Assembly: GCF_006016075.1 (NCBI RefSeq)
Contig: NZ_CP040093.1
Span: 1,116,001-1,180,000 of the forward strand
DNA from: Caloramator sp. E03
GTDB taxonomy: Bacteria; Bacillota; Clostridia; Clostridiales; Caloramatoraceae
DNA length: 64,000 nt
Direction of reading: 5' to 3'
The notes under the pieces are model-generated. The model was not told the origin of the DNA, searched no databases, and saw only the letters and a list, made by a program, of their open reading frames with translations. Positions 6,714 to 37,446 of this stretch are shown piece by piece (within the stretch, counting starts at the first letter, position 1; each line of letters begins with the position of its first letter). A program made the position numbers and the translations under genes.

Positions 6714-7092
6714 GGGACGGTTACTTATTTTATATAAAAAATTAATTTTACTGTAATAGATAGGGTTAATAATTTTCAAAATTATAGATAATAAATAACT
6801 GCTCAATATAAAATGTACAAGCTTTGGGACAGCTACCAATCCCACAAGTATCACTATTAAGGATGAAAACAAAATATATTGTCGGTCGATCAAATCAGTT
6901 TCTAAAATATCCAAATATAACATTATATTGTAAATACAACAAATGTTTTCATAATAGTTACTTATTACTCATATTTAATCTTATTACCCTTTAAAAAAGA
7001 TTAAGTTTATATATTTTATGATAGTTTGTGCAGTAGCAGCTGTCCCCTAAAATGTTACGTACATTAAAGTACATATAATAAGTAACCGTCCC
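6714..7092 (-). repeat. Element L copy 1, bounded by inverted REP-like units
   Basis: The unit GGGACGGTTACTTATT at 6714-6729 and its inverse AATAAGTAACCGTCCC at 7077-7092 bound a ~380-bp non-coding element. On the minus strand the core around 6838-6923 nearly matches the cores at 11104-11206 and 26400-26496 (shared words such as ATATTTTAGAAACT and TTTTGTTTTCATCCTTAAT). The gap 6532-7117 holds nothing else. A 100-codon open frame here (6621-6923) is a by-product of the repeat. Confidence 0.75.
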
Positions 7093-7117
7093 TCTGCATT
7101 CCTCTGCATTGTAAAAT

Positions 7118-10625: not shown

Positions 10626-10855
10626 GGGACGGTTAGTGTGAAAATGTTCATTTACAAAAAAGGAAAAAAGTACAAGCCGAGGGACGGTTACTTATTTCAT
10701 ACACAATATCTGCAAAATCAGGGGGACATGTATAAAATATTTTATCTATTATTTAATATAATAAGTAACCGTCCCTTCTGTTACCTTTGAAAAACCACAA
10801 ACTTTTTCATTCCGTCGTTGTGGCTATTTTTAGTCATGACCTGTTACTTATTTTA
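10626..10855 (+). repeat. RAYT-associated composite repeat (BIME-like), copy 1
   Basis: Order of parts: GGGACGGTTAGTGTG (10626-10640), GGGACGGTTACTTATT (10681-10696), inverse AATAAGTAACCGTCCC (10760-10775), a CCACAA/TTGTGG hairpin around 10797-10822, then GTCATGACCTGTTACTTATT. The reverse complement of the whole element recurs at 20833-21060 next to the RAYT gene, and a shorter version is at 37105-37290. It lies inside the MTA salvage gene cluster. Confidence 0.85.
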
Positions 10856-10959: not shown

Positions 10960-11300
10960 GGGACAGTTACTTATTATTCAAAACAAGTTGCTAACTCCCT
11001 CTTCCCCCAACTTGAATTAATATTTATTTTTTTAAGAATCATTAAATCTCTAATGCAAAAAAGAAATAACTACTCTGAAAACACTTATTTTATTTACAGT
11101 ATAATGTTATATTTAGATATTTTAGAAACTAATTTGAGACAATCGACTGTATATTTTGTTTTCATCCTTAATGGTAACACTTGTGTCATTGATGGCTGTC
11201 CCTCTAAACTTGTCCATAAGCTTGCTAAAAATTCAGCATCTCTCTTTTGCTAATTTGTTATCTAATTATCCATATTTTCCAAGAAGTAAGTAACCGTCCC
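10960..11300 (+). repeat. Element L copy 2
   Basis: Bounded by GGGACAGTTACTTATT (10960-10975) and AAGTAAGTAACCGTCCC (11284-11300), which is followed by TTGGCTTGTCC. The core at 11104-11206 matches copies at 6838-6923 (inverted) and 26400-26496. A 66-codon frame inside it (11053-11253) is a repeat by-product. Confidence 0.75.
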
Positions 11301-18437: not shown

Positions 18438-19504
<1,067 letters not shown>

Positions 19505-19505
<1 letters not shown>

Positions 19506-19823: not shown

Positions 19824-20732
19824 TCATGAACCTACAGTCAGTACCTCCTCCGCTATTGCTCTATACCTCTCCTCCTTTATAAGCTCAGCCCCTAAAGAGC
19901 ATAGCCTCGATACGTTCGCTTGCCCTATACTGCCAAGTATCTTGCATATATCAGAGCATTTTAAATCACAAAACTTCCTTAATACAAAACAAAGTATCGC
20001 CTTTGCCTCCTTCGCTCCCTTTGCCCTTTTTATCTTAAGCATTAATTTGTCTATATTAAACCTTTCTGATATTATCTCTATTATCTTCTCAGGGGATAAG
20101 TCCCTTACAAGTACCCTTCTCATACTCCTGTATTCCGTAGGCTCATTTTTAAACTCCTCCTTCTTTGCATCAATTACACTTTTTACTTTAAATATAAAAT
20201 CACGATACATTGCTCGTGCAGCTGCTTCCTTAAGACTAAACATTGAAAGTATAAAGCTGTCATCTATAAGTTCAAACTCATCTTTCTTTTCTGCTAAAAA
20301 TATCCCCAAAGATGAAAAGCGATAATCCTGTGGAGTTGTTTCATAGCCCTTTATATCCGTTGCGTTAAAGTGAACGTAGGCTGTTAAGGCAAAAAGATAT
20401 CTGTCATTATCAACTATAAGGCTTTTAAATCTATCGTGGAAAAGGTGCCCTATTCTTTGGTGCCTTTTGTTGTAATAGATTGCATATTTGTAGTTGATAA
20501 AGTGCATTATCTTCGATATGTCCGCACCATTTGCGTCTATTATGAAGTGGGCGTGGTTATCCATAAGACAGTAGGAATAAACTTTAAACTCGAACTGTTC
20601 CTGAGATTTTTTAACAAATTCCATAAACTTTATTTTATCATCATCGTCTTTAAAAAGAGGGGCCTCAACAATGCTTTTAACCATAACATGATAGATGCAA
20701 TCAAATGACTTCATTCTTGCCATTCTTGGCAT
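19824..20732 (-). CDS. REP-associated tyrosine transposase (RAYT, Y1/HUH)
   Basis: 302-aa HUH single-strand transposase related to IS200 TnpA. The metal-binding His-x-His is in MDNHAHFIID. The candidate nucleophile Tyr lies in the helix NYKYAIYYNKRHQRIGHLFHDRFKS (by parts). A C-terminal helical/HTH extension (residues ~215-300, LKCSDICKILGSIGQANVS) is typical of domesticated RAYTs and absent from IS200 TnpA. No IS200-type ends are seen. Instead a REP-like composite lies 100 bp upstream. Ribosome binding site GGAGGTG is 7 nt before the ATG, inside an inverted repeat. The gene looks intact. Confidence 0.88.
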   Translation of the reverse strand: MPRMARMKSFDCIYHVMVKSIVEAPLFKDDDDKIKFMEFVKKSQEQFEFKVYSYCLMDNHAHFIIDANGADISKIMHFINYKYAIYYNKRHQRIGHLFHDRFKSLIVDNDRYLFALTAYVHFNATDIKGYETTPQDYRFSSLGIFLAEKKDEFELIDDSFILSMFSLKEAAARAMYRDFIFKVKSVIDAKKEEFKNEPTEYRSMRRVLVRDLSPEKIIEIISERFNIDKLMLKIKRAKGAKEAKAILCFVLRKFCDLKCSDICKILGSIGQANVSRLCSLGAELIKEERYRAIAEEVLTVGS

Positions 20733-20739
20733 AACAAAA

Positions 20740-20790
20740 CACCTCCGACTTAGATTATATTTTTAGTATTATTTTTCCAAGTAGGAGGTG
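20740..20790 (-). promoter_or_regulatory. Inverted repeat over the RAYT ribosome binding site
   Basis: CACCTCCGACTT (20740-20751) and AAGTAGGAGGTG (20779-20790) form a 12-bp stem with one mismatch and a 27-nt loop. The stem hides the GGAGGTG used by the RAYT gene on transcripts that enter from upstream. Confidence 0.65.
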
Positions 20791-20832
20791 GTTCTATTCG
20801 TATTATTCATCAAACTGTAAATATTGGAAGGG

Positions 20833-21060
20833 AAATAAGTAACAGGTCATGACTAAAAGTAGCCACAACGACGGAATGAAAAAGTTTGTGGTTTTTCAAA
20901 GGTAACAGAAGGGACGGTTACTTATTATATTAAATAATAGACATAATATTTTACACATGTCCCCCTGATTTTGCAGATATTGTGTATAAAATAAGTAACC
21001 GTCCCTTAACTTGAACTTTTTTTCTTTTTTGTAAATGGACATTTTCACACTAACCGTCCC
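20833..21060 (-). repeat. RAYT-associated composite repeat (BIME-like), copy 2
   Basis: Reverse complement of 10626-10855 over nearly its full length. It contains GGGACGGTTACTTATT (20911-20926), AATAAGTAACCGTCCC (20990-21005) and CACACTAACCGTCCC (21046-21060), plus the CCACAA/TTGTGG hairpin. It lies directly upstream of the RAYT gene. An extra variant unit AATAATTAACCGTCCC follows at 21127-21142. Confidence 0.88.
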
Positions 21061-21166
21061 AAAACTACAAAAACTACAAAACTAAAAACACTATTCTTAA
21101 AAAACAAAAGAAAAAATGGTATGAAAAATAATTAACCGTCCCTTGATTTCTTCATTAGCTCTCTCA

Positions 21167-26370: not shown

Positions 26371-26542
26371 ATAGTAAGTAACTGTTCCTAGTCTTGTCTA
26401 TATTTGATATTTTAGAAACTGATTTAAGACAACCGACCATATATTTTGTTTTCATCCTTAATGGTGACACTTATGTGATTTGTGGCTGTCCCTCACTTGT
26501 TAGCAAATTAGTTTAGTATCATACATAATAAGTAACTGTCCC
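26371..26542 (+). repeat. Element L copy 3
   Basis: Bounded by ATAGTAAGTAACTGTTCC (26371-26388) and AATAAGTAACTGTCCC (26527-26542), the latter followed by TCGGCTTGTC. The core at 26400-26496 matches the two other L copies. Here both bounding units point the same way, unlike copies 1 and 2. Confidence 0.75.
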
Positions 26543-32912: not shown

Positions 32913-33004
32913 GGGACGGTTACTTATTATCTATACTCAGTTATTATTAATCCTCCCCCCTATATCAAAAATATTATATCTTGTGTTAAATAAGTAACCG
33001 TCCC
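32913..33004. repeat. Inverted pair of REP-like units
   Basis: GGGACGGTTACTTATT (32913-32928) and AATAAGTAACCGTCCC (32989-33004) are exact inverse copies 60 bp apart, a minimal BIME-like pair. Nothing else is seen in 32776-33040. Confidence 0.88.
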
Positions 33005-37104: not shown

Positions 37105-37290
37105 GGGACGGTTACTTATTTCATACACGATATCTGCAAAATTAAGGGGACCATCCATAAAATATTATGTTTATTTAATATAATAAGTAACCGTCCCTCC
37201 TGTTCCTCCTGTTACTGTCATCTTTGACAACCCACAAACTTTTTCATCCATTCGTTGTGACTATTGCTTAGTCATGGGGTGTTACTTATT
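37105..37290 (+). repeat. RAYT-associated composite repeat, copy 3
   Basis: GGGACGGTTACTTATT (37105-37120), a core with ATATCTGCAAAAT, AATAAGTAACCGTCCC (37182-37197), a CCACAAAC..GTTGTG hairpin and AGTCATGGGGTGTTACTTATT-like end (written in parts). It matches 10681-10855 but lacks the GTTAGTGTG end. A further unit lies at 37357-37372. Confidence 0.82.
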
Positions 37291-37433: not shown

Positions 37434-37446
37434 GGTGCCTGGCACC
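37434..37446. repeat. GGTGCCTGGCACC palindrome
   Basis: Perfect 13-bp palindrome in the context TCTCC..ATATTGAT. Other copies lie at 40523, 40645, 40748, 52609 and 54422. Confidence 0.85.

Follow-up and report, generated by a model that had tools for sequence, protein, structure and literature searches.

Elements in which a RAYT relative is flanked by terminal inverted repeats (TIRs), with families of these TIRs dispersed in the genome, are known as TIRYT/TIRtron from the accessible part of Di Nocera et al. 2013 (PMC3733652). The accessible part of Quentin et al. 2018 (PMC6006769) assigns proteins with a Y1/HUH core and a DnaA_C-like C-terminus to TnpAY1 subclass 2.1.2, which corresponds to RAYT group 1; subclass 2.1 is described there as having no REP-like sequences, and class 2 as being of low copy number. 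Among bacterial transposases that turned into single-copy, vertically inherited genes, RAYTs are the textbook case. The available portion of PMC8049555 presents them as single-copy and incapable of copying themselves. As worded in these portions, neither the single-copy state without self-copying (PMC8049555) nor the absence of REP-like sequences in subclass 2.1 (PMC6006769) applies to the clade presented here.

The locus lies in a window of 64,000 nucleotides (the whole stretch of DNA that was analysed) from Caloramator, a thermophilic member of the Clostridia. With its RAYT-like gene, HTH C-terminus and inverted repeats unrelated to GTAG REPs, the element is a TIRYT/TIRtron by definition. 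A RAYT-like HUH protein, a DnaA_C/HTH C-terminus and non-GTAG inverted repeats are shared with TIRYT/TIRtron, subclass 2.1.2 and RAYT group 1, and the repeats are dispersed also as dimers or clusters, as in TIRYT/TIRtron. When GGGAC[AG]G is compared with the TIR consensus GGGGWSAS, the last seven consensus positions are matched by the A variant, and the G variant departs from them once. The Caloramator system differs from TIRYT/TIRtron and subclass 2.1.2 in its 13 close copies, clade-specific repeat tails across the order, strongly local units, a hairpin at the ribosome binding site (RBS) and a 3' motif. These features, together with microduplications at the unit edges, are new with respect to the accessible parts of the RAYT literature, in whose figures or supplements Clostridia may already stand.

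Like the RAYT/REP/REPIN systems of gammaproteobacteria (PMC2817692, PMC3116915, PMC8049555), the Caloramator system has a 4er8-like core, its own repeat on both sides of the gene, inverted doublets and dispersed intergenic copies. Unlike them, its unit is no GTAG-footed palindrome, and its RAYT is multicopy and apparently self-mobile, with units mostly near RAYTs. The unit also carries CGTC near one end, like the CGTC-tagged REPs (PMC3733652), but those are hairpins with stems of 8-9 bp and no linked transposase, whereas the Caloramator unit has a linked RAYT and no stem, which rules out this assignment. A RAYT clade that is still multiplying would allow mobile and tamed RAYTs to be compared directly. 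With it one could also ask whether the action of RAYTs is largely limited to the surroundings of their own gene. Its dozens of natural pairs of enzyme and repeat, distinguished by a short tail alone, would serve as a natural alphabet for learning how RAYTs choose their DNA.

The RAYT gene and its protein

The gene and the conserved elements around it are as follows.
19824-20732, minus strand: RAYT/TnpAY1 gene, 302 aa, with HUH motif (HAH, H60/H62), Tyr119 and a C-terminal HTH resembling DnaA domain IV
20740-20790, minus strand: predicted 5'UTR hairpin burying the GGAGG Shine-Dalgarno immediately ahead of the start codon
18350-18360, minus strand: conserved motif TTGGACAAGCT of the RAYT 3' region, with an IS30-family ORF between motif and RAYT

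The reading frame is intact. In the profile search it matches Y1_Tnp with 55.9 bits (cut-off 23) and has a Bac_DnaA_C-like C-terminus, while H60/H62 and the catalytic-type Tyr119 are unchanged in an alignment of 39 relatives. The AlphaFold model of the protein has a mean pLDDT of 84. Its best match among solved folds is 4er8, the E. coli RAYT-REP complex (TM 0.71 on target), and it also matches DnaA domain IV, 1j1v (TM 0.83 on target); DnaA is found by sequence as well, weakly, in the profile search. With the HUH motif, the single catalytic Tyr and the RAYT-like core fold, the protein is a RAYT. The first-pass annotation, made from the sequence alone, had described an intact HUH transposase of RAYT type with HAH motif and C-terminal HTH in a clostridial host, and all of this is borne out; two genomes of the same genus were matched to C. 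quimbayensis and Caloramator sp. SKW245.

The NCBIfam model REP_Tyr_transpos gives 46.4 bits against a cut-off of 80, a shortfall that may fit a distant subclass, and the IS200 model scores 16 against a cut-off of 55. The class 2 signature Y---NP appears as YIHNNP in the consensus of the order and as YVHFNA in the window protein, where Tyr and Asn are kept and Pro is not. On its architecture the protein is assigned to TnpAY1 subclass 2.1.2, RAYT group 1. It shares the HUH/Y1 core with IS200/IS605 but is not a TnpA of that family (about 150 aa, no terminal inverted repeats), since it has 302 residues, the additional DnaA-like domain and terminal inverted repeats. Carriage by plasmid or phage was also rejected, as only distant relatives occur there, with identities no higher than 36% along part of the protein.

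A hairpin pairing with the Shine-Dalgarno sequence is predicted in all copies of the ACTTATT clade and in 36 of 52 RAYTs overall (median z -4.1), and two of its pairs are changed on both sides. This hairpin probably keeps translation low. The left end of IS200 likewise carries a hairpin that buries the RBS, and the RAYT 5' hairpin recalls it. On the other side of the gene, TTGGACAAGC is found with at most one mismatch 40-240 nt past the stop codon in 59% of RAYTs versus 0.4% of shuffles. A part of its reverse complement, GCTTGTCC, lies beyond the outer unit edge in 10.6% versus 0.3%. In the window, an IS30-family transposase ORF (18438-19505) is located between the RAYT stop codon and the TTGGACAAGC motif.

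The repeat unit and its arrangements

Representative units and larger arrangements in the window are given below; those without a strand are inverted or composite structures.
20833-21060: composite repeat element, starting about 100 bp upstream of the RAYT start codon, 95% identical, inverted, to 10626-10853
10626-10853: second composite copy, without RAYT, 95% identical to 20833-21060
20911-21005: 95-bp inverted doublet of the 16-bp unit, REPIN/MITE-like, with a 16-bp stem
32913-33004: 92-bp inverted doublet of the unit
37105-37197: 93-bp inverted doublet of the unit
21046-21060, plus strand: variant outer unit CACACTAACCGTCCC, at the composite's far end
21127-21142, plus strand: solitary unit AATAATTAACCGTCCC, the outermost unit of the RAYT insertion
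7077-7112, plus strand: solitary unit with edge microduplication GTCCC-TCTGCATT-CC-TCTGCATT

The 16-mer AATAAGTAACCGTCCC occurs at 27 sites of the window with at most three mismatches, where 0.33 are expected, and none of 100 shuffles reaches this number. At most two mismatches leave 24 units, of which 23 fall clear of ORFs of 100 aa or longer, while 82% of the window lies within such ORFs (p about 9e-17). The intergenic placement reported in the first-pass annotation thus stands, while its figure of about 30 copies becomes 27; the composite of inverted units it placed about 100 bp from the RAYT is confirmed. The genome-wide count that it proposed yields 140 exact sites of the core 13-mer AAGTAACCGTCCC in the 2.98-Mb Caloramator genome, 70 on each strand, and none for the reversed control. 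Unit statistics for this genome are based on 36 stretches, the window included, and on listed positions; the window and the 35 further stretches contain 197 units with at most two mismatches, many of them held in composite copies of about 230 bp.

Among 51 pairs of inverted neighbouring units, 40 are spaced 74-79 nt from start to start, giving doublets of 92-95 bp with a 16-bp stem. The doublets have the organisation of a REPIN or BIME: two inverted units, fixed spacing and a long hairpin. The single unit does not justify the earlier REP/BIME-like label, for the lone 16-mer lacks both a GTAG foot and a predicted fold (0 kcal/mol), so that a palindromic REP with an unpaired GTAG-type foot is ruled out; the unit serves the RAYT element as its terminal inverted repeat. 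The earlier statement that it is unlike the GTAG hairpins is correct, but because the unit is a RAYT terminal repeat in the TIRYT/TIRtron arrangement, it belongs to a class already known (Di Nocera et al. 2013). No Rfam family was found for the region up to E = 1, and no listed title from a literature search by repeat sequence was relevant.

Microduplications with the pattern unit-X-CC-X occur at the outer edges of units. Repeats of 6 nt or more are present in 29.5% of 132 different outer flanks versus 6.5% of genome positions; the copy begins mostly within the terminal CCC, and X is most often 8 nt long. The enrichment is strong at the outer edge only (window 7077-7112; unit edges throughout stretches L021-L055). 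In the AACA family the trend is the same but weaker, with 8-nt repeats at 10% of outer and 1% of inner edges.

Two other repeats were observed in the window. A second family, the palindrome GGTGCCTGGCACC, is located at 37434, 40523, 40645, 40748, 52609 and 54422, often beside units, and corresponds to the ends of the 38% RAYT of the same genome (L034). A dispersed repeat of about 60-150 bp, beginning TTTTGTTTTCATCCTTAATGGTRACACTT and ending GGCTGTCCC, is located at 6826-6966, 11061-11213 and 26403-26494, and is present too in G002 and near the RAYT of stretch L024.

RAYT copies, their ends and empty sites

The chromosome contains 13 RAYT copies with at least 77% protein identity, the window copy included, plus one of 43% and one of 38%. 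The full left unit GGGAC[AG]GTTACT[TC]ATT is found at about -108 from the start codon in eight of the 13. The other five, including the window copy, have the left end CCTGTTACT[TC]ATT or a near variant, abutting a composite. In the window this end is the following.
20834-20846, plus strand: left terminal repeat of the RAYT copy, variant AATAAGTAACAGG, at the RAYT/composite junction

An inverted unit follows downstream in 12 of the 13 close copies, within 1066-1363. Between the left unit and about +893, six copies share 98-99% identity. At that point, some five codons before the stop, the near-identical copies (L026, L028, L029, L030, L031) diverge and acquire different C-terminal tails. Three of the six (L026, L029, L030) have unrelated left flanks immediately outside the left repeat, and L028, L025 and L031 have a neighbouring composite in common.

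Empty sites were found in sister species at two of three loci checked. At the window locus both G001 and G002 lack everything from 18250 to about 21127-21142, and at the uvrB locus G002 has 91 nt versus 1724; the third locus is occupied in G001 as well. No exact target-site duplication is readable at the empty sites, because their flanks are too diverged. The recent activity supposed in the first-pass annotation is supported, and a domesticated RAYT, single-copy and without self-copying, is ruled out by the 13 close copies and the two empty loci. From this sequence comparison, the RAYT is multicopy in Caloramator and probably mobile, which the first-pass annotation had overlooked along with the clade-specific tails and the confinement of units to the RAYT surroundings.

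Pairing, local confinement and origin

In a survey of 147 genomes of the order, AAGTAACCGTCCC is present in 6/6 genomes that have a RAYT at least 63% identical and in 5/141 others, two of these with a single match (p 4e-8). Conversely, GGGACGGTTAACA is absent from the own genome and occurs in 32/82 RAYT-positive versus 1/65 RAYT-negative genomes (p 5e-9); both Fisher values overstate independence because the genomes are related. The unit counts therefore follow the RAYT clade in both directions, as the proposed pairing of RAYT and repeat implied, and the 16-mer is not equally common where the RAYT is missing. There are exceptions: G023 has five units and a RAYT only about 50% identical, and G014 has three units and no RAYT. 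A general score for inverted repeats between RAYT flanks barely exceeded the control, owing to the AT-rich sequences, and was replaced by counting the core motif in expected versus opposite orientation. The core GGGAC[AG]GTT is found upstream of 50/57 RAYTs of the order and inverted downstream of 42/57, compared with 13 and 7 in the opposite orientation. Tail types require 10 changes on the RAYT tree versus 29.6 when shuffled, and the ACTTATT tail corresponds to one fully supported RAYT clade. As judged from these counts and the tree, the repeat tracks the RAYT clade across the order as a constant core with a clade-specific tail.

The units are also confined along the chromosome. In the own genome, 48 plus-strand units are over 2 kb away from any RAYT, and 38 of them have one within 25 kb, where 19% would be expected. 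In six low-copy genomes 88 of 90 exact units lie within 43 kb of a RAYT: 5/5 in G021, 6/6 in G004 and 10/10 in G032 (within 25 kb), 15/15 in G068 (within 40 kb), 19/21 in G053 and 33/33 in G143 (within 43 kb). They are spread over 10-40 kb in many separate intergenic gaps, point either way and have unrelated flanks. In G053, G068, G143 and G054 (L163, L161, L165, L168) the cobalamin biosynthesis cluster contains a RAYT and has units in most of the gaps between its genes, an arrangement conserved across these four species; a cargo transposon is ruled out there because the genes between the units are this host cluster. A tendency towards the vicinity is known from Thauera, where over a third of REPs are near the rayt gene (Nunvar et al. 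2010, PMC2817692), but confinement as strong as this did not turn up in the accessible RAYT literature.

What the sequence itself shows, namely the pairing, the number of copies, the structure of the ends, the empty sites and the local clustering, is probably explained by a TIRYT-type RAYT transposon that multiplied itself together with short derivatives. Alternatively, homologous recombination and gene conversion among repeat-rich intergenic regions could have raised the number of RAYT copies and made them alike, with the RAYT moving only small units as in proteobacteria. This would suit the near-identity that gives way to different 3' tails after +893, for which recombination between copies is one possible reason, and the composite shared by L028, L025 and L031. 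Since the similarity ends before the stop codon and the right boundary is not uniform, such exchange may explain part of the copy number. As a full account we consider it unlikely, in view of the unrelated sequence directly outside three left repeats and of the window and uvrB loci being empty in sister species.

It is somewhat doubtful that the local clusters reflect tandem duplication, rearrangement and loss of distant copies instead of preferential local transposition. Arrays with a period of 44-46 or 77 bp exist, a 106-bp unit-containing difference in the own genome lies beside an existing unit, and in three close species most differences in unit number are tandem duplications of unit plus flank at old sites, so that arrays growing at inherited sites account for some of the clustering. 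The scatter of units over many gaps in both orientations, with unrelated flanks, is hard to obtain in this way. A host regulatory or terminator motif, associated with the RAYT by chance, would be almost entirely intergenic, as the units are; it is scarcely credible, however, for a unit whose type shifts with the RAYT clade, which is lacking in nearly all RAYT-free relatives and which brackets the RAYT itself.

For the self-multiplying transposon, binding, cleavage, the route of transposition and translational control are inferred as follows. The element measures 1.2-1.45 kb and consists of the left end GGGAC[AG]GTT plus tail, the RBS-burying hairpin, which probably lowers translation, the RAYT gene, TTGGACAAGC and the same repeat inverted as right end. 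The RAYT would recognise the end sequence of its own clade; in the likeliest division of labour, the duplex unit is bound by the DnaA-like domain, while nicking and joining of single-stranded ends fall to the HUH/Tyr core. The element would have copied itself within the genome, while non-autonomous pieces (inverted doublets of 92-95 bp, composites of about 230 bp and solo units) would have spread mostly near each RAYT copy. A further proposal is tentative and, in our judgement, improbable: the clostridial RAYTs of subclass 2.1.2 might be single-strand transposons that mobilise themselves and insert their products mostly close to the source copy, with the DnaA-like domain reading a clade-specific tail as guide, and joining might leave short flank duplications split by the terminal CC of the unit, a mode of joining or copying undescribed for HUH transposases.

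Three RAYT/repeat pairs coexist in the Caloramator genome, because its 43% and 38% RAYTs carry different ends: GGGACGGTTCTTTT in the former and GGTGCCAGGCACCGGAGAATGGAGAA in the latter (L034, G000:C1:1259916), a palindrome present six times in the window. In G017, a genome of the family, only GGGAC of the core is kept, followed by ATATAAGTG. This genome has at least 13 RAYT copies (L170-L173) of about 51% identity with the different end GGGACATATAAGTG, and in one of them the whole left end is duplicated in tandem.
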